Assembly: GCA_011525365.1 (NCBI GenBank)
Contig: WTGQ01000003.1
Location: 1 to 64,000 of the forward strand
Origin: Acidobacteriota bacterium
GTDB taxonomy: Bacteria > Acidobacteriota > Thermoanaerobaculia > Multivoradales > Multivoraceae
DNA length: 64,000 bases
Direction of reading: 5' to 3'
Shown: piece by piece, positions 27-61,506 of the stretch
Layout of the letters: each line of letters starts with the position of its first letter
Position numbering within the stretch: the first letter of the stretch is position 1
Made by a program: the position numbers and the translations under genes
The notes under the pieces: generated by a model
Databases searched by the model: none
Told to the model about the DNA's origin: nothing
The model's input: only the letters and a program-made list of their open reading frames with translations

Positions 27-656
27 CTACCAACACGACCGACACTCTCGGGTACCGCGCAGGTGTGCTGACGACCACCGCCACTCCTCTGCTTCCCGGC
101 AAAGCCCCGCTTGAACAGGGTTCAACCAGATGTAACGGCGCACGGCCTCCAGATGCCGGGAATCTCGAATGAAGCGGTCGTAGTAGTCCCTCATCCAGAA
201 CGCTCCGCTTCGACCAAGGAGCTGATTGGCCTGTCTGGCGGTAGTCGACTTCCACATGCGCACGATGTCCGGGAGAGGGGTCCGAAGCGGTTCCACAAGA
301 ACGTGCACATGGTTCGGCATGACGCACCAATCGATGAGTCGATAGCGGTCACCGTCCGCATGAAGCAGTGATTCCTGCACCAGACGTGCGACTGCCGGGC
401 GCCGCAGATGGCAGGCGCCGTAGCCGGTGTCCTCGAAGCGGCTAACGAGACGCTCCAGGCGGACTGCCCGTGCCTTGTCCAGTTCGAGATCCTCTTCGAC
501 CTCTTGCCGCCATCGCCTCAGCAGTTGCCTGGGAACGCTGTCCGCGAGCCGGAAGCCGACGCTCTGAACGACCATCGGACCGTCGAAGTGCGGGTGATAG
601 CCACGCGAATACCAACCCAGTCGCCGCTTCGGGTCAGGAACGTCATCGCTTGCCAT
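27..656 (-). CDS. REP-associated tyrosine transposase (RAYT, Y1/IS200-like)
   Basis: The 209-residue protein carries the HUH metal-binding motif (H116-V-H118 within MPNHVHVL). Near residues 171-185 it has the RAYT signature, with a Tyr followed by IWLNPVQAGL; Tyr175 is the likely catalytic residue that forms a 5'-phosphotyrosine with single-stranded DNA. Family members bind imperfect REP hairpins and cut next to them, and they are usually single-copy chromosomal genes rather than true insertion sequences. Here both sides carry matching repeats: ACCGACACC units at 1-26 and hairpins at 753-897. I infer that this enzyme mobilises, or once mobilised, the 27-bp palindrome family. ATG start; full length, with no sign of a frameshift. 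Confidence 0.88.
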   Translation of the reverse strand: MASDDVPDPKRRLGWYSRGYHPHFDGPMVVQSVGFRLADSVPRQLLRRWRQEVEEDLELDKARAVRLERLVSRFEDTGYGACHLRRPAVARLVQESLLHADGDRYRLIDWCVMPNHVHVLVEPLRTPLPDIVRMWKSTTARQANQLLGRSGAFWMRDYYDRFIRDSRHLEAVRRYIWLNPVQAGLCREAEEWRWSSAHLRGTRECRSCW

Positions 657-752
657 GCCTGGTGTACGGAGTCGCCTATCGGAACGTCCAACCGAGGCTG
701 TCGATGCCGGTGCGCCACCGTGCCGGTGCAGTGCCGGTGCGCCGGCCTGTTG

Positions 753-774
753 CCGCGGGTCTTCTGACCCGCGG
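753..774 (-). repeat. Palindrome family 2 (GGGTC/GACCC), reverse orientation
   Basis: A 9-bp stem CCGCGGGTC/GACCCGCGG closes a TTCT loop, which reads AGAA on the minus strand. It has the same loop and geometry as the 27-bp family but different arms. It lies between the transposase and the next repeat. Degenerate GTGCCGGTGCGCC units precede it at about 708-745. Confidence 0.6.
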
Positions 775-846
775 AAGACCCGCGCCGCCAGGCGGCCAAG
801 AAAGAACGCGCCGGCCGAAGGCCGGCTCCTCTTCTCACTCGGGCTC

Positions 847-897
847 GCCGCTTCGCGGCATCGCGCTTATGCCGGCCAGAAGGCCGGCGCACCGACA
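847..897 (+). repeat. Bipartite palindrome: GCCGC-TTCG-CGGC hairpin plus 27-bp core (copy 1)
   Basis: A small hairpin, GCCGC TTCG CGGC (847-859), is followed by the full 27-bp core at 871-897: arms GCCGGCC/GGCCGGC, AGAA loop, GCACCGACA tail. Degenerate ACACCGACAC units continue to about 950. The pairing of the two hairpins recurs at 2010-2066, 3810-3869, 28401-28454, 31501-31551 and 61441-61484, so the mobile unit may be bipartite, like a BIME. It is intergenic between the transposase and the 947-3151 gene. Confidence 0.8.
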
Positions 898-946: not shown

Positions 947-3151
947 CTACGCGCGGCCTACCAGGCGTTTCAGGGGGCGCTTGATGGGGCCGGGGAGGCG
1001 GCGGCCGATGCGGACGGCGTGGCGTTCGAGGCGTTTGGCCAGGCTCTCGCGGGCCATCGAGAGGGGACGGCGGCCGCCGTTCCGCAGCCACTTCGCCTCT
1101 TCCTCGGTGATGGTCAGGGCCGCGGCGGCGGCGAGGTCCTCCACTTCCTGCTCGGTGGCGGCGCCGACGATGGCGTGGAGCGGAAGGTCCTGGGCGAGCA
1201 CCCAGGCGAGCGCGATCTGGGGCACCGTCGCGCCGCCGGTCTTCGCGAACTCGGTCACCCGGTCCAGGCGCGCGAGGTTCACGTCGTGGACGTAGGCGGT
1301 GCGGCAGGCCTCGTCGACCAGGCTCGGGTCCGCGGCGAAGGCACGCCGGCTGACGCGGCCGGAGAACAGGCCGCGCGCGAGGGACGACCAGGCGAAGATG
1401 GCCATGCCGGTGCTGCGGTGCCAGTCGCGGTCGTCAGCGGCCGCCTGGCCCGTCAGCGTGACGCAGCCTCCGCCCCACGGGTCCTTGATCTGGTCGGCGA
1501 GCGAGAAGTTGGGGCTCGACGCGGCGGGCGGCGGACGGTCGTTGGCTTCCGCGTAGTCGCAGGCCTCTTCGATCCGCGCGCGCGTCCAGTTCGAGAATCC
1601 GTAGGCGCCTAGCCGGCCGGCCGCGACGTGTTCGGCGAAGGCGTCGACCATCTCGCCCACCGGTACCGCCGGGTCGTCGCGGTGGAGCATGTAGAGGTCG
1701 ACGGCCGGAAGCCGCAGCCGGTCTAGCGACTCAGCGAGGTCCCGGGCCAGGGCCTCCGGGTTGACGCGCGGCCCCGCCGCATCCGGGTGGCAGCCCTTGG
1801 ACAGGATGAAGACGTCGTCCGCGAGACCGCGGCGCTCGAGCCATGAACCGATGGCGCGTTCGGAGGCGCCGTTACCGTAGACGTGGCCAGTGTCGAGGGC
1901 GGAGATGCCGTGCTCGAAGGCGGCGTCGAGGAGGGCGTCGGCTTCGGTTTGGGCGGCGGGTGTGTCGTTGGTGAGGGGCATTGTGCCCAGGACCAGGCGG
2001 GGGAGGAACTCGGGCTCGCCGCCTTGCGGCTCGCCTGATGCCGGCCAGAAGGCCGGCGCACCGACAGGCGCACCGACACCGGCACCGACACCCGCACCCA
2101 GAGGGAGGTAGGTCATTGCTCTGTGGGTTCCGGCGGTGACGCCGATGCTTGGCTCGAAGGGGTACTGGACGCCGATGCGGCGGCGCAGTTCGTCCATCAG
2201 TTCGATCAGGCCGATGGACTCCGCGTGCGGCAGGAGCGGACTCTCGACTTCGCCGTCGCGGAGCATTCGTGCGAGTTCGAGCGCCTGGTACTCGTAGCCG
2301 TTGCAGAGGAACGGGCACTCCAGCGTGGCGACCTCCTGCGCCTCGCACTCCAGCTTGAGTTGCTGGGCGCGCCAGAAGTCCGAAATCACGATCCTGCCGC
2401 GGTCGCCCTGGATGACGCCGGTGGCGGAGAGGGCCTTGCTGATGGAGGATTCGAGGTACGCCTCGGCGCCGTCCCCGAAGCGCAGGACGATCTTGCAGTA
2501 CTCGTCGACCCCGGAGGGCGCGAGGTCGGCACGGACCTCGATCTGCGGGATGTTGCCGCCGGTCACCCGCTCCCCGAAGACCAGCGACGCCAGCGAGAGC
2601 GTGTAGCAGCCGATGTCGAGCAGGCTGCCGCCCCCCAGTTCGGGATTGTAGAGGCGGCTCTCCGGGTCGAACTTCGCCTTGAAGCCGAAGGCACAGACCA
2701 CCCGGCTCGGCTCGCCGATCGTGCCGTTGGCGACCCAGTCCGCGGCCCGCAGGGTCGCCGGCAGGAACCGGGTCCACATCGCCTCGAGCAGCGGCCGTCC
2801 CTGCTCGCGGGCGATGGCGCACAGACGGCGGGCCTCCGAGGCGTTGACGCAGAGCGGCTTCTCGCAAAGCACTGCCTTGCCGTGCCGCAGCGCCAGCGAC
2901 GCGTGCTCCAGGTGACCGGGATGGGGACTGGCGACGTAGACAGCGTCGACCGACTCGCTGCGCACCAGGTCCCGGTAGGTGCCGACCTCGGCGTCCCGAT
3001 AGCCGCGCTCGGCGGTGAAGTTGGCCGCGCGCTGCGGGTCGCGGCTGCCGACGGCCACGATTTCGTGACCGTCCAGTCCATCGATTGCGGTGGCGAAGAC
3101 GCGGGCGATGGCGCCCGGACCGATGATTCCCCAACGAACGGTTGCGACCAT
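947..3151 (-). CDS. Gfo/Idh/MocA oxidoreductase fused to aldo/keto reductase
   Basis: This 734-residue protein has two catalytic modules. Residues 1-345 are a Gfo/Idh/MocA dehydrogenase, with a GPGAIA nucleotide loop at 11-16 and the EKP catalytic-lysine motif at 97-99. Residues from about 380 to 700 are an aldo/keto reductase with the Asp-Tyr-Lys-His set in ALDTGHVYG, LSKG and LYMLHRDD. The last 30 residues are very basic. Both families use NAD(P)H on sugars or polyols. The linker (about residues 350-375) is made largely of a palindromic repeat read as [11 protein letters not shown] plus GAGVGAG units, so the fusion point coincides with a repeat. It starts 3 nt after the radical SAM gene, as last gene of a three-gene operon. 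The substrate is unknown; a role in surface-sugar modification is inferred from neighbours. Confidence 0.85.
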   Translation of the reverse strand: MVATVRWGIIGPGAIARVFATAIDGLDGHEIVAVGSRDPQRAANFTAERGYRDAEVGTYRDLVRSESVDAVYVASPHPGHLEHASLALRHGKAVLCEKPLCVNASEARRLCAIAREQGRPLLEAMWTRFLPATLRAADWVANGTIGEPSRVVCAFGFKAKFDPESRLYNPELGGGSLLDIGCYTLSLASLVFGERVTGGNIPQIEVRADLAPSGVDEYCKIVLRFGDGAEAYLESSISKALSATGVIQGDRGRIVISDFWRAQQLKLECEAQEVATLECPFLCNGYEYQALELARMLRDGEVESPLLPHAESIGLIELMDELRRRIGVQYPFEPSIGVTAGTHRAMTYLPLGAGVGAGVGAPVGAPAFWPASGEPQGGEPEFLPRLVLGTMPLTNDTPAAQTEADALLDAAFEHGISALDTGHVYGNGASERAIGSWLERRGLADDVFILSKGCHPDAAGPRVNPEALARDLAESLDRLRLPAVDLYMLHRDDPAVPVGEMVDAFAEHVAAGRLGAYGFSNWTRARIEEACDYAEANDRPPPAASSPNFSLADQIKDPWGGGCVTLTGQAAADDRDWHRSTGMAIFAWSSLARGLFSGRVSRRAFAADPSLVDEACRTAYVHDVNLARLDRVTEFAKTGGATVPQIALAWVLAQDLPLHAIVGAATEQEVEDLAAAAALTITEEEAKWLRNGGRRPLSMARESLAKRLERHAVRIGRRLPGPIKRPLKRLVGRA
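2012..2066 (+). repeat. 27-bp palindrome copy 2, inside CDS (frame VGAPAFWPA)
   Basis: The core is at 2040-2066, preceded by the GCCGCCTTGCGGC companion hairpin. GCACCGACA-like units extend to about 2098. It lies fully inside the 947-3151 gene and is read in frame on the minus strand as VGAPAFWPA, exactly at the linker between the two enzyme domains. Confidence 0.85.
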
Positions 3152-3154
3152 GAT

Positions 3155-5263
3155 TCAGACCTTTCCGCGCAGCGCCTGGAACGCCAGATCGCGAGCGCGA
3201 CGGGGCTCGTAAATGAAGACACGACGAACTTTGGGGCCTATGCGATAGCGCATCCCGGCCAGCCGCCGCGGCCAGCCGGTGCGGGGACGCGCCACCGTCA
3301 GCGCGTAGTGGCCGTCGCCCGTACCCGAGCCCGCCGCGAGGCGCTGGAGGTCGGCTTCCGGCAGCCCGCTCCAGTCGACGGCGGTGGCGAGCGGCGCGAT
3401 CAGGTCGCCGCCGTAGGGGCGCACGGACTCGACCCGGAAGCCGGTGCGGACCAGGCGGGCGACGTCGCCGGAGCGCGTGGCCCGGGCGCAGTCGCCCTCC
3501 ACCGGGGGCATGGGCAGTCGTTCGAAGCGCCGTGCCGCGGCCGGCAGCCGGCGGTAGGCGGCCGCGGCCGCGGCGCCCGTGCGGCGGTTCCACTGGTGAC
3601 GTGCCGGGCCCACGTAGTCGTCCACGAACAGCCGGCCGCCCGGTTCCAGGGCGTCGAGCACGGCGTCGAGCAGCCGTTCGAGGCGGAGGTGCGAGGAGAG
3701 GCCGCCGATGCAGCAGGCGGCCTGGTAGGCGGCGGCGGGGAGGACGGGGCGGTGGGGGTGGATGGGGAGGTGGTGGATGTGGGGTTCGGGCTCGCCGTTG
3801 GGGGGAGGTACGGGCTCGCCGCTACGCGGCATCGCGCCTGTTGCCGGCCAGAAGGCCGGCGCACCGGCACTCGCACTCGAAGTGACTACGTCGACTTGCT
3901 TTGCGAAGCCGGCGCGGAGCAGTTCGTGGGCCCAGGCTTCGTCGCCGATGAGGAGGACGCGGTCGAAGGGTTCGGCGGGAGTGTGCTCCGCAATCCAGGC
4001 AGCGGGACTGGGAAGCCCTGTCGGTGCGCCGGGTGTCGGTGCGCCGGGTGTCGGTGCTCCGGGTGTCGGTGCGCCGGCCTTCTGGCCGGCCCCCGCCGAA
4101 GGCGGTGACAAATCGCCGGCCGCAGGCCGACCGCTCTCCCCCACCACCTCAGTCACGCCACCACTCCCCGGCCCAGCACCCAACTGCTCCAGCCGCTCGC
4201 CCGCCTGCTGCCGCCACTGCAGCCGGAAGTACAGCGCGTGCTTGCGCTCCGAGCACGTCCGGCACGTACCGCAAGGATTGCCGCTCTTCAGACCGTCGAC
4301 GATCTCCAGAAGAAGCGGCGCCCGCTCGACCTCCCCGAGCGAAGTCTCCGGGTACAAACCGATCGGTTGGTCCTCCCAGAAGATGCACGGCGAGACCGCG
4401 CCGTTGGGGCGGACGACCACCGTGTGACCGGGCCAGGCGCAGCCGGCGACCGCGGTGCGGAAGCGGCCGCGCAGACGCTGCCGGTCGTAGAGGCCCGCCC
4501 GCCAGCGCAGCAGGTGGCCGCGGAGGCCGATGGACCGGCCGTCGTCGAAGTCGGGGTACGACACGAGGCGGAGTCCGCGGGCGGCCGCGTCCTCCGCCGC
4601 GGCGGCGAGCTCGGCGCGCAGAGCGGCCGGATCCTCGTCGTCGAGCAGCTCGTCCTCGGCGGTCACGTGGGCGGTCGGGGTGACGAAGCGGACGTCGAGT
4701 TCACCGGCGCCGACTTCCTCGGCGAAGCGCGGCAGGTCGGCGAGATCGCCGCGGTTCGTCTGCATCCACACGAAGATCAGCCGCAGCCCGGTGGCGGTCC
4801 CCCGCCGGACGTCGTTCAGCAGGTCCAGGCAACGCATCAGGCGGTCGAACTTGCCGCCGGCGCGGATCGCCTCGTAGGTCTCGGCGCTGGTGCCGTCCAT
4901 CGACACGCCGACCGTGTTCACCCCGGCCTCGCAGATCGCCTCGGCCTTGGGCGGCGTCAGCGGCAGCAGGTTGGTGGGGAACCAGAGGTCGGGCACGCCG
5001 TAGCTGCCGGCTTCGCGCACGATGTCGATGAACTTCGGGTGCACGAGCGGCTCCGCCGCACAGCCCAGGGCGACCTTGCGGGCGCGGGGGAAGAGGTCGG
5101 CCGCGACCCGGGAGAAGGTCTCGAGCGGCATCATGCCGTTGCTCGACAACTGGCGGTCGAAGGGCAGGAACTGCAGCCGGTCGACCGCCGAGAAGTAGCA
5201 CATCTTGCACTTCAGGTTGCAGCGCTCGGTGGTGTCGAGGATGACTTCCAGCGGGCGGGTCAT
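3155..5263 (-). CDS. Radical SAM protein fused to methyltransferase-like domain
   Basis: The N-terminal half is a radical SAM enzyme with the 4Fe-4S motif CNLKCKMC (C15, C19, C22) and a SPASM-like auxiliary cysteine cluster ending in CGTCRTC near residue 365. The C-terminal half, after a low-complexity linker, resembles a class I methyltransferase (DVVTSS, ALEPGGRLFVDDYVG). I chose the ATG at 5263 because it overlaps the upstream stop as ATGA and puts the CxxxCxxC at its usual distance; a start 20 codons earlier would overlap the glycosyltransferase. Two palindromic repeats are read in frame: one at about residues 391-400 as AGQKAGAPT, continuing into a GAPTP tandem, and one at 465-473 as [10 protein letters not shown], inside the methyltransferase-like part. 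Length 702 residues. The reaction is unknown. Confidence 0.82.
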   Translation of the reverse strand: MTRPLEVILDTTERCNLKCKMCYFSAVDRLQFLPFDRQLSSNGMMPLETFSRVAADLFPRARKVALGCAAEPLVHPKFIDIVREAGSYGVPDLWFPTNLLPLTPPKAEAICEAGVNTVGVSMDGTSAETYEAIRAGGKFDRLMRCLDLLNDVRRGTATGLRLIFVWMQTNRGDLADLPRFAEEVGAGELDVRFVTPTAHVTAEDELLDDEDPAALRAELAAAAEDAAARGLRLVSYPDFDDGRSIGLRGHLLRWRAGLYDRQRLRGRFRTAVAGCAWPGHTVVVRPNGAVSPCIFWEDQPIGLYPETSLGEVERAPLLLEIVDGLKSGNPCGTCRTCSERKHALYFRLQWRQQAGERLEQLGAGPGSGGVTEVVGESGRPAAGDLSPPSAGAGQKAGAPTPGAPTPGAPTPGAPTGLPSPAAWIAEHTPAEPFDRVLLIGDEAWAHELLRAGFAKQVDVVTSSASAGAPAFWPATGAMPRSGEPVPPPNGEPEPHIHHLPIHPHRPVLPAAAYQAACCIGGLSSHLRLERLLDAVLDALEPGGRLFVDDYVGPARHQWNRRTGAAAAAAYRRLPAAARRFERLPMPPVEGDCARATRSGDVARLVRTGFRVESVRPYGGDLIAPLATAVDWSGLPEADLQRLAAGSGTGDGHYALTVARPRTGWPRRLAGMRYRIGPKVRRVFIYEPRRARDLAFQALRGKV
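3810..3869 (+). repeat. 27-bp palindrome copy 3, inside CDS
   Basis: The core is at 3843-3869, with a one-base tail variant (GCACCGGCA). It is preceded by the companion hairpin GCCGCTACGCGGC. It is read in frame on the minus strand as AGAPAFWPA inside the methyltransferase-like part of the radical SAM fusion protein. Confidence 0.85.
4019..4090 (-). repeat. 27-bp palindrome copy 4 with 15-bp tandem expansion, inside CDS
   Basis: Four 15-bp units beginning TGTCGGTG run from 4019 to 4078; three end in GGG and the last merges into the full core at 4064-4090. On the coding strand this is AGQKAGAPT followed by three more PGAPT repeats. The core lies opposite in orientation to copies 2 and 3. It sits at the junction of the radical SAM and methyltransferase-like domains. 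Confidence 0.85.
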
Positions 5264-6429
5264 GCGGGGAGGGCCTCGAGCATCGTCTGGCAGACGCCGC
5301 GGCCGGAACTCCTCCGGCGCCATACCGCGGCGATGCTAGCCGGGTCGCGTTCGCCGCGCCGCCAGGCTGCCTGCTCCTCCGCGATCGCCGCGGCCAGCGG
5401 CCCGGCGCGGTGCGCGGAGGCGACCCGGCCGTAGGCGCCGCCCTCGGACCAGCTCCGCAGGCTCGGAATCGGCGTCCCCACCACGGTCGCTCCCATCGAC
5501 AGCGCCTCGCAGCCGGCGTGCGGCGCGCCTTCCCAGCGCGACGAAAAGAGGATGAAGCGACTGCCGGCCAATGCGTCAGCCAGCACTTCCGGGTACTGCG
5601 GCCCCTCGTGGACGACGTTCGGAAAGCGCCGGCCGAGCGCGCCGAACCGGTCCTCGCCGCCGGGGCCGAAGATCCGGACCGGATCGCCGGCCTCCTCGCC
5701 GCGAGCCCGACCGAGGTAGCGGGACAGCGCCCGGACCAGCAGCGGAGCGTTCTTCTGGGGATCGTCCCAGCGGCCGATCGCCACGATGCCCCGCCGTTCC
5801 CGCTCGAGGTCCGGCGACTCGCAGTAGACCCGATGGATGGCGAGCGGAGAGACGTGAACGCGGTCCTGGAGGCCGTCCGCGCCCGCGCTGCGCAGGAAGC
5901 GGCGGAAGTGGGTCCTCGCCTCCTCGCAGCCGAGGATGAGCACGTCGGACGAGCCGGCGCTGCGGACGAACTCGGCGTCCTGCGGATCGGTGCGACGGAA
6001 AGAGAGCAGGTAGCGCCGGGCGAGAAAGCGGAGTTGCCGGAACTGGTGGTCGCGGTCGGACGAGCCCGAGAAGACCTTCCGGCGCAGCGTGGCCAGGGGA
6101 AAGGCGCGAAGACCCATCTGGCCGTCCGAGTCGCCCATCGCGATCGTGCGCACACCGGCGCCGCGGATCAGTTCCAGGAGATTCGACATCTGGTGGAAGG
6201 ACGGCACGATCGCCACGTCGGCCTCGAGGCCTCGCCAGAACCCGGCGTCCTCCAGGCCGCCGCCCCCGGGCGGTGAGACGATCGGCACGGGGAAGCCGTC
6301 GTTCGAGGACTCGGGACACGCGACGAACGCCTCGTGGCCGAGCGCCTCGAGGCCCCGAACGTACTCCTCGAACCGGAAGCTGCACTGCCTGAGCGGCGTG
6401 CCGTAGTTCCAGACGACCGCGACGCGCAT
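5260..6429 (-). CDS. Glycosyltransferase family 4-like protein
   Basis: The 389-residue protein has a two-domain GT-B layout. A Rossmann-like N-terminus is followed by a C-terminal donor-binding half with GIVAIGRWDDPQKN, FGPGGE and the typical FSSRWEGAPHAGCEALSMGATVV segment, whose acidic residue usually contacts the nucleotide-sugar ribose. The protein is cytoplasmic and has no membrane segments. It is the first gene of a tight operon: its TGA overlaps the ATG of the radical SAM gene. The set suggests modification of a polysaccharide or LPS glycan. Donor and acceptor cannot be read from sequence. Confidence 0.82.
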   Translation of the reverse strand: MRVAVVWNYGTPLRQCSFRFEEYVRGLEALGHEAFVACPESSNDGFPVPIVSPPGGGGLEDAGFWRGLEADVAIVPSFHQMSNLLELIRGAGVRTIAMGDSDGQMGLRAFPLATLRRKVFSGSSDRDHQFRQLRFLARRYLLSFRRTDPQDAEFVRSAGSSDVLILGCEEARTHFRRFLRSAGADGLQDRVHVSPLAIHRVYCESPDLERERRGIVAIGRWDDPQKNAPLLVRALSRYLGRARGEEAGDPVRIFGPGGEDRFGALGRRFPNVVHEGPQYPEVLADALAGSRFILFSSRWEGAPHAGCEALSMGATVVGTPIPSLRSWSEGGAYGRVASAHRAGPLAAAIAEEQAAWRRGERDPASIAAVWRRRSSGRGVCQTMLEALPA

Positions 6430-6498
6430 GATGCACGACGCTACCGGACGAAGGTGTGACGGTGGGATGCTCGGGAGATGACGGGTTGCGGACCGGAT

Positions 6499-6525
6499 GC
6501 CGGCCAGAAGGCCGGCGCACCGACA
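6499..6525 (+). repeat. 27-bp palindrome copy 5, intergenic
   Basis: Perfect core between the glycosyltransferase start (6429) and the stop of the secreted protein at 6535. It sits only 9 bp beyond that stop codon and could serve as its 3' hairpin. Confidence 0.85.
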
Positions 6526-6534
6526 GGTGGGCGG

Positions 6535-7707
6535 TCAGTTGCAGGAGAAGGCGGCGTTGTCGCTTCTGGTGGACGCGGTGTCTCCCTGCCGGTTGCGGTG
6601 GGTCCAGGTGTCCACGCCGTCGGTGACCTGGAGGTTGAAGGCGAGGTCGGTTACCGGCGCCACGAACACCCAGCGGTGGTTGTTGTGGTCACAGCCGTTC
6701 AACACCTTGATCAGCACCTCCGCGTTGTCGCGGTTGAAGAACCAGAGCAGGCCGGATTCGCCGGAGGCCCAGATGCCGGCCTTGCCCTCGCCGACGGCGC
6801 CCGCGGGCGTCTCGTAGCACATGCTGACGCTGTAGCGGCCGTCGAAGACGAGCGGCGTCGTCTCGGGGACGCAGTCGGTATAGCCCTCCTCGGTCGGCGG
6901 GCCGGGGTCGGGATCGGGATCGGGATCAGGGTCGGGATCGGGATCGGGGTCGGGATGGTTGACCGCCAGGCGAATGCCGTAGGCACCCGGCTCCGTGTCG
7001 ACCTGCCACCGATCCCACTCGTCGTTTTCGTCGTCGCGACCCCGAAACGCCCGCGCTCCGCCCGAGCCGTCCTCGTCCACACCCAGGAGCTTCGTGTTCG
7101 TGGACGGGTCGCCGCGCAGCCAGGAAACGGCGACCCAGACCTCGCCGGCGTTCAGCTCCAGGCCCTCCACGGCGCCGCCGATCTCGAAGCAGGCGTAGGT
7201 CCCGGCCTCCGGCAACTCCGCCGGCACGTCGAACGCGTCGAGAAGAGTCACGGGCTCGTTGCCGGCGCCGGAGTAGAAGCTCAACGAAAAGGCCGCGTCG
7301 CTGCTCGTGTCGTCCCGTGTTCTCGCCATGCACGCCACCGCGTACTCGACGGTCCCCGCTTCCCGCAGCCGGAACCGTTGGGCGAACTCCATCTCGTAGA
7401 GGAAGTCGTCCGTCGTGTCGTCGACGAGGCGATAGAAGCCCTCGAAGACGTTGTCGTCGTACTGGTAGATCTCCGTGGCCGGCTGGCGCACGCCGGTGAT
7501 CGCCTGGTCGACGGACACGGCGCCGCGGCCGCGCGCCTCGACACGGACGGCGTCCACATGCTCGATGAGGCTCAGGCGCTCCGCCCTGATCTCGACCCTC
7601 GACTCGGGCAGCAGCAGATCCCGGCCCTCCTGGGCGGCGGCTGGCGGCGCGAAGGCAAGAAGCGCAGCGAGGACGACAAGGACTGTGGAGAGACTTCTGG
7701 ACGGCAT
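6535..7707 (-). CDS. Secreted protein with Asp-Pro linker and C-terminal WFF/WVF domain
   Basis: The 390-residue exported protein starts at an ATG preceded by GGGAGGA. It has a clear signal peptide (LVVLAALLAFAPPAAAQ). Residues of about 25-255 form a domain shared with the neighbouring protein at 7850-9025 (YQYDD, an AQRF block, then AYGIRLAV). A (DP)n linker follows, encoded by hexanucleotide repeats at about 6898-6957. The C-terminal domain of about 110 residues contains YSVSMCYET, LLWFFNRDNAEVLIKVLNGC and HRWVFVAPVTD, and ends in a lone Cys near the C-terminus. The same domain occurs in four other secreted proteins of this window. I do not recognise a catalytic motif; a surface-adhesive or binding role is only a guess. 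Confidence 0.75.
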   Translation of the reverse strand: MPSRSLSTVLVVLAALLAFAPPAAAQEGRDLLLPESRVEIRAERLSLIEHVDAVRVEARGRGAVSVDQAITGVRQPATEIYQYDDNVFEGFYRLVDDTTDDFLYEMEFAQRFRLREAGTVEYAVACMARTRDDTSSDAAFSLSFYSGAGNEPVTLLDAFDVPAELPEAGTYACFEIGGAVEGLELNAGEVWVAVSWLRGDPSTNTKLLGVDEDGSGGARAFRGRDDENDEWDRWQVDTEPGAYGIRLAVNHPDPDPDPDPDPDPDPDPGPPTEEGYTDCVPETTPLVFDGRYSVSMCYETPAGAVGEGKAGIWASGESGLLWFFNRDNAEVLIKVLNGCDHNNHRWVFVAPVTDLAFNLQVTDGVDTWTHRNRQGDTASTRSDNAAFSCN

Positions 7708-7849
7708 GGCGTTCCTCCCGGGAGTAGTGACGGAGCCTCCGTTCACTTGACGGTAGTTCGCAAACGGCATGCCAACCTTCCCACACCCCGGAAAAAGAAA
7801 CGGGGCGCCGGGTCAGCACCCGACGCCCCGTATCCGCTGGCTGCTTCGC

Positions 7850-9025
7850 CTAGTTGTTACAGGAGAAGGCCATGACGTCCCGGGTCGACGCCCCGCGGCG
7901 TCCACGGAACCACTTGACTTCGTCGGTCATCGTGTCCCGGACGGCGATGCTGTAGTCCGCGTCCGACGCTGCGCCGGCGTACAGCCCGAAGTAGCCGCTG
8001 CCGCTGCAGTCGTCGACCAGCCGCACCAGCAGCGCCGGGTCGTCGTCGCCGAAGGTGAACAGGCCGGCGGCGCCGGCGAGGCCCGCCGCGACCGTTCCGG
8101 CTGCCTCGCCCGGCATGCCGGGCATCGCATAGCGCGCCCTCACGCGGAAGCGACCGTCCTCCAGCAGGCAAAGCCCGTCGCTGCACGCGGAGTCGGCTGG
8201 CGGTCCGGGGTCGGGGCCGGGGCCGGGATCAGGTCCGGGATCGGGCGTGTGCACGGACTGGTCGACGACCAGGCGAATGCCGTACGCCTTGACCCGGGGA
8301 GTGCTTTGCTGTGGATTGTCCCAGTTCGTCCAGGAACCGTCACCGCCATGCGACCGTCTGCGCACGCTCGTCGCGTGCATCTGGTTGCCCGTGGGCGCGG
8401 GATCCATGCTGGTGTAGTGGTCCTCGCCGAGGAGCTTGTTCGTGTTGCCCTGCCACGCGACGCCGACCCATATCGCGCCCCGCGCCATTCCCCTGCCGCT
8501 CAGGGCGCCCGCGAAGGTAAGGCACTCGTCAGTGCCCCGGCGCGCGATCCGCGACCTCACCTCGTATCGAAGGCCACTGACCGTTCCCGGTTGTCCGTTG
8601 TTGTCCCGGTAAAAGGTCAGGTCGAACACCACGTCCCCGGTCCGGTCCGTACGGGGCCGCTCGAAGCAGACCTCGAGGTTCACCAGGCTGCCCGCGCCGC
8701 TCAACTCGAACCGTTGCGCGACCTCCGTCACGAAGGGCCGGAAGGCATCGGGGATAGAGCCGTAGTTCTCGAAGTCCCCGTCGTCGTACTGGTACCTCGT
8801 CGTGTCGTGTACGGCGCTGGTCACGCGTTCGAGATCCGGGCTGGCTGCCAGCCGGACGGTGGTCGTGAGTTCGACCGGCCCGGAAGGCGGCGAGTCCAAT
8901 CGCAGCACGTCTTCCGCGTCGAGCAGGTCGATTCCTCTCTGCGCCGCCAGCGGCGCAGAAGCGCAAACCAGCAGGCTCAGCAGGCAGATCAGGTTCAGAA
9001 CGATGCGGCCGCTGTCCGTTTTCAT
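7850..9025 (-). CDS. Secreted protein, paralogue of the downstream gene
   Basis: The 391-residue protein has a signal peptide (LNLICLLSLLVCASAPLAAQ) and an ATG preceded by GGGAAG. Its domain order is the same as in the 6535-7707 product. The N-terminal module has YQYDDGDFENYG and VTEVAQRFELS, and reaches AYGIRLVVDQ. A DPGPDPG linker and a C-terminal domain (CLLEDGRFRVRARY, GLFTFGDDDPALLVRLVDDC) follow. The C-terminal domain is divergent, lacking the WFF and WVF tryptophans. Tandem duplication is the simplest origin. Only 142 bp separate the two genes, so they may be cotranscribed. Function unknown. Confidence 0.72.
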   Translation of the reverse strand: MKTDSGRIVLNLICLLSLLVCASAPLAAQRGIDLLDAEDVLRLDSPPSGPVELTTTVRLAASPDLERVTSAVHDTTRYQYDDGDFENYGSIPDAFRPFVTEVAQRFELSGAGSLVNLEVCFERPRTDRTGDVVFDLTFYRDNNGQPGTVSGLRYEVRSRIARRGTDECLTFAGALSGRGMARGAIWVGVAWQGNTNKLLGEDHYTSMDPAPTGNQMHATSVRRRSHGGDGSWTNWDNPQQSTPRVKAYGIRLVVDQSVHTPDPGPDPGPGPDPGPPADSACSDGLCLLEDGRFRVRARYAMPGMPGEAAGTVAAGLAGAAGLFTFGDDDPALLVRLVDDCSGSGYFGLYAGAASDADYSIAVRDTMTDEVKWFRGRRGASTRDVMAFSCNN

Positions 9026-9142
9026 GGTCTTCCCTTTCCGGTGAGACACCCCGGTGTTAGGTGGGAAATCTATACGTCCCAGTAGATTACGCCGAAGTTA
9101 TAGAGGAATGCAAATCGATTAGTCGGCGTTGCTGCAGCAGAA

Positions 9143-9197
9143 GCCGGCCAGAAGGCCGGCGCACCGACAGGCCGGCCAGAAGGCCGGCGCACCGACA
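9143..9197 (+). repeat. 27-bp palindrome, direct tandem pair (copies 6 and 7)
   Basis: Two perfect cores, 9143-9169 and 9171-9197, are separated by one base. They lie immediately downstream of the metalloprotease stop (9205) and upstream of the 7850-9025 gene. This is the only head-to-tail full-core pair in the window. It is not CRISPR, since there is no spacer. Confidence 0.9.
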
Positions 9198-9204
9198 GGT
9201 CGGG

Positions 9205-11703
9205 TCACGGCGCCGAGCAGGGGAACGCCTTCAGCTCCTGCACGGGCCGGAACAGCGTGCCCGCGGGATTCTCGAACGTCCGTTCCTCGCCGGTCTCCGT
9301 GTCGGTGACCGTCATCGTGACGCCGAGGTCCGTCAGGCCGCCCGCGAACACCCAGCGGTGACCGTTGAAGTCGCAGCCGTCCAGCACCTTGAGGACCATC
9401 TCGACGTTGCTCGGCTGGAAGAACCAGTAGAGGCCCGTGTCTCCGGTCAACGGCCAGGCGACGGCGTCGCCGGTCTTGCCGTCCGCGCTCTCCCAGGTGG
9501 CCCGGACCGCGAAGCGTCCGTTCTCGAGGCAGAGGGTCTCTTCGTCGGGGATGCAGTTGCCGCCGACGGCCTGCGCGAGCCTGGATGCCGGCCAGAAGGC
9601 CGGCGCACCGACAGTTGGCGCACCGACGTCCGGAGCCGCACCGGCACTGCCGCCGCGTACGGCCTCCATCTCGCCGGCCGAGAGCAGGTAACGGCTCTCG
9701 CCGTAGAGGTTGCCGCCCTGGGAACAGACGGCGAAGGTGTCCTGGTCCTGGACCGGCTCGAAGGCCGCGCCCGGCCGGTTGTAGTAGGTGGCCGCCACGC
9801 CGGTCTCCGAGTCGATCACCTTCATGACGACCTTGACGTCGGTCAGCCCGCCGGCGAACACCCAGTAGCGGTCGTTGAAGCGGCAGCCGTCGAGCACCTT
9901 GACGACGACCTCGACGTTCTCCGCGTTGAAGAACCAGAGATAGCCGGTGTCGTTCGTCAGCGGCTCGGCAGCGCCCGCGCCGGCATCCTGCGCCGACTGC
10001 CACTGGAGCTCGACCCGGAAACGCCCCTGGTTCAGGCACACCGTGTCGCGGTCCTCGACGCACTCCGCGACCTCGGCGAGGGTGGTGGCGCCGACTTCGA
10101 GCGTGGGGCTCGAAACGCCGCGGTTGTTCGTGGCGAAGACCTGGTACGCGCGGAAGGAGGCGGGAGGGATGTCCTCGATGACGACGGACGTCGTGTTCGC
10201 CGGCAGAACGGCGATGCGCATGAACTCGCTGTCGACCATCCGTTCATGGATCTCGAAGCCCGTCTCGTCGCCGGAACGGTCCTGCCAGCGAAGTTCCAGT
10301 TCCGTCTGGCTGATCGCGCTGACGGTCAGGCCGCCGGGGGCCGCCGGTCCCACCGGCCCCACCGGTCCGGTCAGCGGGTAGAGGGTGCGCACTCCGTTTC
10401 GGTCGTCGCGCTTGAGCGCGGCGCCCTCGATCAGGGCGTCGCCGATGTGCGACCGCATGATCGTGCGCTTCTCCTGGTCCGATTCGCAGGGACCGGTCTC
10501 GTCATCGCCGCAACTGTGGCCGAGGCCCAGCGCGTGACCCAACTCATGCGCCATCAACTGCGCGTGGGCCCGGCGCGGATTCTCCGTCGAGGCCACCCAG
10601 CGGTGATAGCCGTCCTGGGTCGTGATGTTGGCTTCCACCAGTTCGTACGCCCGCGCCCGCGGCCGGCCTGGAATGGTGTGCTCGTTGCACCTGTAGTACC
10701 AGTACGCGTAGGCGAGCACGCCACCTGTCGCCGGATCGTAGCTGCCGTCGATCTCGTCGAGAGGATCCTCGAAGGTGATCGAATTCGTGCCGTCGGAGTC
10801 CTGCAGGGAGGGGTGCTCCTTCGCCAGGCCGCCCTGGACCAGATTGACGCGGCTCCTGGGATCCTGGGTCCATGCCCCCATCGCGGCAAGCACCTGTGAC
10901 ATCCCGCCGCCCACGACGCCCCGCTGGCCCTCCGCCTGGACCACCATCTCCACCCTCTCGCCCCGGTCGAAGTTCCGCCAGCGGATGGGCAGTTCCGGCC
11001 GAGCGCAGGCGTCGCCAAGCGACAGGTTGAAGGCGGAGGCGACCGCCACGGGATCATCTCCCGCATTGCTCATGAAGTAGTCGGCCGGACGGTCGGCCCC
11101 GGCCACGTGATCGGCGATCCAGCGGCGAAACCGGACCGCGTCGCGCGGGCGCCACTCATCGACTCTTGCGCCGGCGGTCGAGCCGCCGGCAACGGCCGCG
11201 ACGCGAAGCGCCGGCTCGCGCTGCAGCAGCATGCTGCCGCCCGCCGGCGCCTCGAAGAACATGCCCAGGGCGAGCTCGACCGTGCGGTAGACGCCCTCGA
11301 CCGGATTCAGGAAGAGCAGCACCCGGTCGCCTTCGACCAGAGCCGGCAGGCCGACCACCCGGCCCACCAGGCCGTCCGGGCTGACGCCGCCCGGCTGGCG
11401 GATGACGATGGTGCCACCCGGCACGAAGCCCTTGAGCACCTCCTCGACCTGGAACATGACGTCGGTGGAGAGCGGGCCACCCGCCGGCCCGGGCTCGGTG
11501 GCGACGACCTCGCCGAAGACGATGACGGGCGAACGGTCGACCATCACCTCGTCGGCGGGCATGACGTAGACGAGGGCTTGTGCGGCGGGGGCGAGGAGAA
11601 GTAGGGCGGCGGTCAGAATGCCGGCCAGAAGGCCGGCGCACCGACAGACGCACCGGCACCGGCGCCGGTAGAGAGGAATGTCGATGAGACGATGGGTGGG
11701 CAT
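9205..11703 (-). CDS. Secreted zinc metalloprotease with FN3 and two C-terminal WFF/WVF domains
   Basis: The 832-residue exported protein carries a metzincin zinc site HELGHALGLGH (about residues 386-396) followed by a Met-turn segment (RTIMRSH). An Fn3-like domain with a sequence like LTVSAISQTELELRWQDRSGDETGFEIHE (quoted here only by its LELRWQD core) follows at about 450-535. Two copies of the window's WFF/WVF domain (about 545-655 and 715-832) end the protein. They are separated by a linker containing an in-frame palindromic repeat ([10 protein letters not shown]). The signal peptide is built on another repeat copy: CRCAGLLAG is followed by ILTAALLLLAPAAQA. I chose the ATG at 11703; upstream ATG/TTG codons would add a non-signal extension. 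Confidence 0.82.
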   Translation of the reverse strand: MPTHRLIDIPLYRRRCRCVCRCAGLLAGILTAALLLLAPAAQALVYVMPADEVMVDRSPVIVFGEVVATEPGPAGGPLSTDVMFQVEEVLKGFVPGGTIVIRQPGGVSPDGLVGRVVGLPALVEGDRVLLFLNPVEGVYRTVELALGMFFEAPAGGSMLLQREPALRVAAVAGGSTAGARVDEWRPRDAVRFRRWIADHVAGADRPADYFMSNAGDDPVAVASAFNLSLGDACARPELPIRWRNFDRGERVEMVVQAEGQRGVVGGGMSQVLAAMGAWTQDPRSRVNLVQGGLAKEHPSLQDSDGTNSITFEDPLDEIDGSYDPATGGVLAYAYWYYRCNEHTIPGRPRARAYELVEANITTQDGYHRWVASTENPRRAHAQLMAHELGHALGLGHSCGDDETGPCESDQEKRTIMRSHIGDALIEGAALKRDDRNGVRTLYPLTGPVGPVGPAAPGGLTVSAISQTELELRWQDRSGDETGFEIHERMVDSEFMRIAVLPANTTSVVIEDIPPASFRAYQVFATNNRGVSSPTLEVGATTLAEVAECVEDRDTVCLNQGRFRVELQWQSAQDAGAGAAEPLTNDTGYLWFFNAENVEVVVKVLDGCRFNDRYWVFAGGLTDVKVVMKVIDSETGVAATYYNRPGAAFEPVQDQDTFAVCSQGGNLYGESRYLLSAGEMEAVRGGSAGAAPDVGAPTVGAPAFWPASRLAQAVGGNCIPDEETLCLENGRFAVRATWESADGKTGDAVAWPLTGDTGLYWFFQPSNVEMVLKVLDGCDFNGHRWVFAGGLTDLGVTMTVTDTETGEERTFENPAGTLFRPVQELKAFPCSAP
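9587..9613 (+). repeat. 27-bp palindrome copy 8, inside CDS
   Basis: Perfect core inside the metalloprotease gene, read in frame on the minus strand as VGAPAFWPA between the two C-terminal domains. A second VGAPT-type half unit lies at about 9611-9630. Confidence 0.88.
11620..11646 (+). repeat. 27-bp palindrome copy 9, inside signal-peptide coding region
   Basis: Perfect core read on the minus strand in the third frame as CRCAGLLAG, residues 20-28 of the metalloprotease. It forms the end of the n-region and the beginning of the hydrophobic core of the signal peptide. GCACCGGCACC-type tail units continue to about 11668 and encode the preceding RRRCRCV residues. Confidence 0.85.
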
Positions 11704-11762: not shown

Positions 11763-12440
11763 TCAAGGCTTTTTCGAGAGCAGTTGGCCGGCCCGCGCCG
11801 TCAACTCGTCGAGTCGGGCGCCGAGTTCGAGCCGGGCCTCCTCGCGCTCCGCGGCCGTCGCCTTGCGCTCGAGCATCATCGGTTCGCCGACCACGACCGC
11901 CACGCGGGTGAACGGAAGGCCGATCGTCATGCGGTCCCAGCTTCGCAATCTGAACGCGCGGGCGGCGGCGATGCCGGCGGGGACGATCGGCGCGCCCGAC
12001 GTAGCCGCCAGCACGATGCCGCCGGGCTTGGCCTCGCGGGCCGGCCCGCGAGGACCGTCGGGCATGAGGAGCAGGGTCGACCGGTGCCTGCGGAGCTCGC
12101 CGTAGAGATGGAGCGCCGCCTCGCGGCCGCCCCGCGAGGTCGAACCGCGGGTGACCCGGATGCCCCAGGCACGGCCGATCCGCGCCGACAGCTCACCGTC
12201 GGCGGAGTGGCTGGCGAGGATGGACACCGGTCCGCCGGCGGGCAGCAGGAAGCGGCGCACCAGCAGCAGGGAGAGCGCCGTCTGCCCGTGCCAGCAGGCG
12301 AGCATGGACGGGGGCTGGAGAGCCCGCTCCAGGTGCTCGCGGCCCTCGAAGTGGCGGAGGCGCCAGGTGGCGCTCACGGCCTGGGAGAGGAAGCGCAATG
12401 CCACGGCGGCGGGCGCCAGGGCGGCGCCGCGAACCTTCAT
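11763..12440 (-). CDS. Lysophospholipid acyltransferase-like protein (DUF374/LPLAT)
   Basis: The 225-residue protein resembles DUF374-type LPLAT proteins. It has a hydrophobic N-terminus, the block LACWHGQTALS in place of the HxxxxD acyltransferase motif, LLLMPDGPRGPAREAKPG, and a conserved APIVPAGIAA segment. Such proteins sit next to lipid A or KDO genes and are thought to acylate a lipid precursor at the inner membrane. I use the ATG at 12440, because the longer reading (from 12488) would run through a palindromic repeat. Downstream of the MsbA-like transporter in the same direction, consistent with a lipid A assembly role. No strong Shine-Dalgarno is visible. Confidence 0.75.
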   Translation of the reverse strand: MKVRGAALAPAAVALRFLSQAVSATWRLRHFEGREHLERALQPPSMLACWHGQTALSLLLVRRFLLPAGGPVSILASHSADGELSARIGRAWGIRVTRGSTSRGGREAALHLYGELRRHRSTLLLMPDGPRGPAREAKPGGIVLAATSGAPIVPAGIAAARAFRLRSWDRMTIGLPFTRVAVVVGEPMMLERKATAAEREEARLELGARLDELTARAGQLLSKKP

Positions 12441-12466: not shown

Positions 12467-12493
12467 GCCGGCCAGAAGGCCGGCGCACCGACA
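12467..12493 (+). repeat. 27-bp palindrome copy 10, intergenic
   Basis: Perfect core in the 72-bp gap between the ABC transporter stop (12513) and the acyltransferase start (12440). It would lie in the 5' leader of the acyltransferase mRNA and could occlude or stabilise it. Confidence 0.88.
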
Positions 12494-28400: not shown

Positions 28401-28454
28401 CTCGCCGCTTCGCGGCTCGCGCTTGATGCCGGCCGGAAGGCCGGCGCACCGACA
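28401..28454 (+). repeat. 27-bp palindrome copy 11 with companion hairpin
   Basis: Companion GCCGCTTCGCGGC followed by the core at 28428-28454, with a one-base loop variant (CGGAAG for CAGAAG). It lies between the convergent ends of sodB and ctpA, where it could act as a bidirectional mRNA 3' structure. Confidence 0.8.
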
Positions 28455-31500: not shown

Positions 31501-31565
31501 TGCCGCTTCGCGGCTGCGCCTGATGCCGGCCAGAAGGCCGGCGCACCGACACCGCGCACCCAGCG
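31501..31565 (+). repeat. 27-bp palindrome copy 12 with family 2 tail
   Basis: Companion hairpin GCCGCTTCGCGGC at 31502-31514, core at 31525-31551, directly followed by CGCGCACCCAGCG (to 31565), the tail of family 2. The 31537-31565 part is an exact inverted copy of 30249-30277. It separates kdsC from tatA. Confidence 0.85.
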
Positions 31566-61281: not shown

Positions 61282-61308
61282 GCCGGCCAGAGGGCCGGCG
61301 CACCGACA
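61282..61308 (+). repeat. 27-bp palindrome copy 13 (loop variant)
   Basis: Loop AGAG instead of AGAA. Between purA (stop 61274) and tRNA-Lys, about 20 bp before the tRNA. A TATACT at 61318-61323 follows it. Confidence 0.8.
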
Positions 61309-61328
61309 CCGCGGTCGTATACTGCGCC

Positions 61329-61404
61329 GGGCCGTTAGCTCAGTTGGTAGAGCAGTGGACTTTTAATCCAAGGGTCGGGGGTTCGATCCCCTCACGGCCC
61401 ACCA
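61329..61404 (+). tRNA. tRNA-Lys (TTT)
   Basis: 76 nt with CCA. Acceptor GGGCCGT/ACGGCCC; anticodon loop CTTTTAA; T loop TTCGATC. The TATACT box ends 6 nt before it, so transcription could begin exactly at its first base. Alternatively it is read through from purA. Confidence 0.96.
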
Positions 61405-61406
61405 GG

Positions 61407-61506
61407 GCGCCCCGCTAGCGCGGCAGACAGTCCAGAGTCCGCCGCTTCGCGGCGGCTGCCGGCCAGAAGGCCGGCGCACCCAGTTTCTGCCGCGCTAGCG
61501 GGGCGC
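61407..61506. repeat. 100-bp element with 21-bp perfect terminal inverted repeats enclosing a family 1 palindrome
   Basis: The arms (61407-61427 and 61486-61506) are perfect inverted copies containing CGCTAGCG. Between them are the companion hairpin (GCCGCTTCGCGGC, 61441-61453) and a core at 61458-61484 with tail GCACCCAGT. The right arm overlaps the last codons of the DUF3604 gene. It starts 3 bp after the tRNA. This is MITE-like or a bidirectional terminator. Confidence 0.7.

Follow-up and report, generated by a model that had tools for sequence, protein, structure and literature searches.

In the REP/REPIN-RAYT systems of Pseudomonas, Stenotrophomonas and E. coli (PMC2817692, PMC3116915, PMC8266576), a short hairpin whose tag stands on one side only, immediately 5', is present in high copy number and mostly outside genes, inverted doublets have a conserved spacing, cognate REPINs (paired inverted REPs, in the sense of PMC3116915) flank the RAYT gene, and copies are denser near it. 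Pseudomonas REPs carry TGTAGGAGC or TGTGGGAGC followed by the stem (PMC2817692), degenerate forms of the GTAG tag (GYAG, GTRG and GTMG) have been reported (PMC3733652), and crowding of REPs near tnpA-REP was noted in Marinomonas (PMC8266576). REPs that lie in frame inside genes of RAYT-bearing genomes, for example in O. terrae, were described in 2013 (Di Nocera et al., PMC3733652), and the Rickettsia elements RPE-4 and RPE-6 were classed as CGTC REPs (PMC3733652).

The 64,000-nucleotide stretch of DNA analysed here (the window) carries a repeat that shares all these traits of the Pseudomonas, Stenotrophomonas and E. coli systems. It differs from Pseudomonas REPs in its tag, since the family 1 tag has GTCG where Pseudomonas has TGTAGGAGC or TGTGGGAGC, and family 2 has CTGGGTGC. 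Neither family has the canonical GTAG of the GTAG superfamily: the degenerate form GTMG would cover the GTCG of family 1, and family 2 has CTGG. Unlike the REPs of those three groups, it is hosted by an uncultured Acidobacteriota genus and the REPIN spacer contains three extra hairpins. Like the intragenic GTAG/CGTC REPs (PMC3733652), copies sit in frame in many unrelated proteins, as single or dimeric elements and in RAYT-bearing genomes; unlike them, a single genus shows REP-1, REP-2 and empty alleles of one and the same linker, and several of the host genes are neighbours of the RAYT. RPE-4 and RPE-6 are also palindromic repeats in frame in functional proteins, from which the present elements are set apart, as described, by tag (family 1 does not have the CGTC tag of the CGTC REPs), by RAYT linkage and by phylum. 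This is a new REP family pair; the phenomenon itself is already known, and the new element is that different REP families recurrently occupy the same protein linkers in sister species. Because the same linkers form a natural series (empty, family 1, family 2) beside a type-matched RAYT, the genus is a good study system: before-and-after comparisons between related species are unusually clear, and it lends itself to questions about the frequency of REPIN jumps, their distance from the RAYT and the tolerance of a protein linker.

REP families and the RAYT gene

The repeat is one REP arm: its perfect stem of 7 bp encloses an AGAA loop, and its tag, TGTCGGTGC, is strictly confined to one side. The opposite strand shows the REP layout of tag, stem, loop and stem (TGTCGGTGC-GCCGGCC-TTCT-GGCCGGC). 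A stem-loop search that made no use of the tag, over 582 kb of the genome around the copies, returned 103 hairpins. Their 3' flank, CGCACCGACA, is 84-100% conserved per position and their 5' side has no comparable tag, which is the short palindrome with a one-sided conserved tag known from REP/REPIN-RAYT systems. The family 2 REP is CTGGGTGC-GCGGGTC-TTCT-GACCCGC, with CTGGGTGC as its tag. Many copies form inverted pairs ~140 bp long with the tags outward; as in the described systems these doublets have a conserved spacing, which is 116-119 bp start-to-start at several loci; a few further loci have spacings of 70, 96 or 122. One REPIN folds as a single long hairpin of single-stranded DNA (z = -10), and tandem REP copies 27-39 bp apart also exist. 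The tag TGTCGGTGC also occurs in tandem stacks on the outer side of REPs, in the window (4019-4077 and 2066-2095) and in sister species, and the stack in gene B has a period of 15 bp. Solitary tags far from hairpins were considered as excision footprints, an idea that found no support (14 such tags; shuffled 9-mers averaged 7.4, with a spread that includes 14, and enrichment is not clear).

The candidate transposase that the sequence-only reading had seen near the repeat was identified as a RAYT (Table 1). It is a Y1_Tnp gene that scores 83.5 bits with NCBIfam NF047646, above the cut-off of 80, and its best solved relative is E. coli TnpA-REP (PDB 4er8, 2.8e-5); its named relatives are from Acidobacteriota MAGs (Thermoanaerobaculia, Holophagales). 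It has the HuH motif (PNHVH), the catalytic Tyr and the NP(L/V)xxG motif of RAYTs (YIWLNPVQAG here, NPVKAG in G013), and no other Y1_Tnp gene is present in the 4.22-Mb genome. RAYTs of sister species are bracketed on both sides by REPINs of inverted cognate REPs, as in the described systems; the window shows one flank only because the contig begins there. These flanks are family 1 REPINs in G013 and G007, and family 2 REPINs in the clade G001b/G002/G003/G008/G017 (2+1 arms in G008). Two RAYT lineages are found at one locus, each with the matching REP type: REP type follows RAYT type.

Table 1. Positions of the RAYT gene, REP copies and host genes in the window
Feature	Position	Strand	Method
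RAYT, REP-associated tyrosine transposase; HuH motif PNHVH, catalytic-Tyr region RYIWLNPVQAG	27-656	-	Pfam PF01797, 6e-9
REPIN beside RAYT; decayed left arm (732-778), intact right arm (871-897)	732-897	.	
REP copy, intergenic; right arm of the RAYT-side REPIN	871-897	+	27-mer search
Gene A, GFO/IDH/MocA oxidoreductase fused to aldo/keto reductase	947-3151	-	orthologues aligned, 13 genus genomes
Gene A linker with insert, residues 349-382, ~26 aa longer than in empty-site orthologues	2006-2107	-	
REP copy in frame in gene A, VGAPAFWPA	2040-2066	+	27-mer search and alignment
Gene B, radical SAM/SPASM enzyme with C-terminal extension	3155-5323	-	
REP copy (1 mismatch) in frame, gene B second linker, AGAPAFWPA	3843-3869	+	
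REP copy in frame, gene B first linker, AGQKAGAPT, then stacked tag copies (PGAPTPGAPTPGAPT)	4064-4090	-	
REP copy, intergenic	6499-6525	+	27-mer search
REP copy, intergenic, in tandem with the 9171 copy (28-bp period)	9143-9169	+	27-mer search
REP copy, intergenic, just downstream of gene C stop	9171-9197	+	27-mer search
Gene C, protease-like secreted protein hosting two REP inserts; matches to matrixin and fn3	9205-11703	-	
REP copy in frame near gene C C terminus, VGAPAFWPA	9587-9613	+	
REP copy in frame, gene C signal-peptide region, CRCAGLLAG	11620-11646	+	
REP copy, just upstream of called start of gene 11763-12440 (-)	12467-12493	+	27-mer search
REP copy (1 mismatch), intergenic	28428-28454	+	27-mer search
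REP copy, intergenic	31525-31551	+	27-mer search
REP copy (1 mismatch), upstream of tRNA-Lys 61329-61404	61282-61308	+	27-mer search
REP stem with variant tag GCACCCAGT, downstream of tRNA-Lys 61329-61404	61458-61484	+	27-mer search

Distribution in the genome and the genus

When up to 3 mismatches are allowed, the 27-mer GCCGGCCAGAAGGCCGGCGCACCGACA occurs 14 times in the window; 100 shuffles gave none. Genome-wide, REP family 1 has 101 copies (at most 2 mismatches), and a reversed-pattern control has 0. Every one of the 21 genus genomes has family 1 (1-104 copies each), and 20 genomes from the rest of the family and order have none; family 2 was found in 19 of the 21, with up to 172 copies. 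Plasmid records searched with the REP dimer gave one 25-nt match, which is chance level.

Genes were called with a home-made codon-usage caller (coding fraction 0.916). Only 24 of the 101 copies lie inside called genes, against ~92 expected, and about three quarters are outside; high copy number and a chiefly extragenic location are again as in REP/REPIN-RAYT systems. The genic copies were found deep inside the gene (13), near the start (8) or near the stop (3), and a Pfam match contains one of the 13 deep copies (in ComEC) vs 5.2 expected. Linkers and protein ends thus hold the majority of the genic copies. Genome-wide, genic copies use five of the six frames; the VGAPAFWPA type is the commonest host-frame peptide, and PARRPAHR is among the others.

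Copies were clustered near the RAYT, 23 of 101 being within 20 kb on either side of it (40 kb), where ~1 was expected. Synteny with G013 places the contig C1 end next to the C2 start at the RAYT, so the cluster in the window and that at the C1 end form one zone. A like crowding of both families is seen on the RAYT contig of G008. The G000 contig ends (C1 1 and 3875896, C2 1 and 272947) fall within or close to REPINs, and the assemblies of several sister species are broken at a REP in gene B: REPINs are assembly breakpoints.

The tRNA-Lys gene at 61329-61404 is bracketed by two REP copies (61282-61484). At 6535-9049 stand two neighbouring paralogous proteins of secreted type with no Pfam match, each with an Asp/Pro-repeat linker (6890-6984 and 8193-8287).

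Empty and filled sites in host genes

At least five copies had been proposed to lie inside three coding genes, in two orientations and three reading frames. Five were located, all in frame, and read VGAPAFWPA, (S)AGAPAFWPA, AGQKAGAPT, VGAPAFWPA and CRCAGLLAG; the copies at 6499 and 9143/9171, within the same range (2040-11646), are intergenic. Comparison with orthologues lacking the insertion had been suggested as a check, and such orthologues exist. In gene A, the insert falls exactly between the two domains, as ~26 aa of extra interdomain linker. This site is empty (short joint only) in G006, G016 and G017, filled by family 1 in G000, G008 and G013, by family 2 in G001, G003, G004 and G011, and by decayed REPs in G005 and G018; a gene tree that excludes the linker requires 6 or more changes to account for these states. 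The gene A junctions have TGTCG in common with some of the empty sites and revealed no clear target-site rule or duplication. An AlphaFold model of gene A, made from 11 orthologues, had a mean pLDDT of 41.6 and was unusable for placing the insert. In the G001 orthologue (L114, contig C25), the linker has a family 2 REP and a flanking coding duplication (YPFEPSIGVTAGTHRAMTYRPV twice).

Similar patterns were observed in the other host genes. Both gene B linkers are REP-filled in many sister species (one to several REPs) and empty in some, the second being empty in G001, G002, G010 and G018. In the signal-peptide region of gene C, G000 and G008 carry family 1, at least five species carry family 2, and G004, G006 and G018 have no insert; six species have family 1 in a C-terminal linker of this gene. 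A like pattern of empty and filled sites recurs in two proteins encoded beyond the window, a two-domain CoA-transferase and one that is DsbA-like (empty in G017). Fourfold sites within the REP are identical in all pairs except those with G013 in gene A (6/7), and the fourfold sites flanking the inserts are 53-87% identical. REP DNA has thus stayed intact while the synonymous sites beside it diverged, which identifies it as inserted DNA rather than a conserved peptide.

We consider it very likely that REPs and REPINs were mobilised in a RAYT-linked manner, with a bias to sites near the RAYT, and then survived selectively outside genes, in linkers, at gene ends and in signal regions. The 27-bp core is a REP, that is a hairpin with a one-sided recognition tag, and half of a REPIN, in which two such units are inverted with their tags outward. 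The RAYT, or its ancestors at that locus, most likely recognises tag and hairpin on single-stranded DNA; we infer that it catalyses their movement to new sites, many of them near its own gene. The reading frame probably plays no part in insertion, and selection would remove most genic insertions. Survivors would then be found between genes, at gene ends, between protein domains in linkers and in signal-peptide regions, places that would tolerate stop-free inserts of 3n bases. Selection rather than targeting would explain the in-frame linker positions. What the data show directly is the anatomy of the repeat, its pairing into REPINs, the identity of the RAYT and its cognate REP flanks, the crowding near it, the scarcity in genes and the empty and filled sites of sister species. 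The comparisons revealed neither a transposition event nor a target-site duplication or precise junction rule, and both common descent with homogenisation and new insertion could account for inserts shared between species.

A rather unlikely alternative is that copies spread by recombination or gene conversion between them and by slippage of tag arrays, with the RAYT now inactive or otherwise used. The near-identity of REP DNA across diverged orthologues, the stacked tags and the tandem REP copies all speak for this, as does the RAYT not being found in 9 of the 21 genus genomes, including G004 with its 84 copies; these absences may be due to assembly gaps, loss or another route of spread. Against it, RAYT flanks match the REP type, and copies occur at unrelated loci with unrelated flanks, so that insertion was required at some time.

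In another reading, which we hold to be unlikely, the REP pool is a standing supply of linker and signal-peptide sequence, the RAYT keeps seeding nearby genes with hairpins free of stops, species fill the same linkers with different families, and the retained frame is selected for its peptide (hydrophobic at N termini, Ala/Pro/Gly-rich in linkers). Exaptation as such, with REPs as a source of linkers and signal sequences whose frame is selected to suit the place, seems distinctly unlikely. The hydrophobic frame CRCAGLLAG is found in three copies, all at most ~33 residues from the called start (3/8 N-terminal vs 0/16 other copies, nominal p ~0.03 by hand), VGAPAFWPA and AGQKAGAPT are mostly in linkers, and the same linkers were filled repeatedly by different REP families. 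However, these numbers are small and start codons uncertain, tolerance alone predicts identical places, and the persistence of empty-site orthologues indicates that the insert is dispensable.

A conserved peptide motif under protein-level selection, with DNA similarity as a by-product, is extremely improbable, and the occurrence of intact REP DNA in several frames, together with orthologues whose site is empty, already refutes it: GAPAFWPA and AGQKAGAPT do recur among orthologues of several species, but the same DNA yields unrelated peptides in the five frames used, most copies are outside genes, some orthologues have no insert, fourfold sites are kept inside the REP and not outside, and orthologues with the same peptide but no DNA repeat, which the sequence-only reading had named as the sign of such a motif, were sought and not found.

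Open frames of the repeat core

The 27-bp core is open in all six frames, as had been reported from the sequence, and hand recomputation confirmed all six translations. T is absent from the core and A hence from its bottom strand, so that a stop codon is impossible on both strands. Shuffling the core always leaves six open frames, and 48.8% of 27-mers drawn at random from the genome (69% GC) and 71.5% of GC-matched ones likewise have no stop in any frame. The property is correct but uninformative: base composition suffices to account for it, and its reading as a special, designed or unusual trait was rejected. The proposed likeness to Rickettsia palindromic elements stands for the mobile palindromic repeat in frame, the transposase nearby and the insert-free orthologues, and falls for the six-frame openness as a designed trait. 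Whole REPINs of the G000 genome have 1-6 open frames each. A 94-bp REPIN with all six frames open lies in frame within an 885-aa VWA-domain protein (G000:C1:3844790-3847447).
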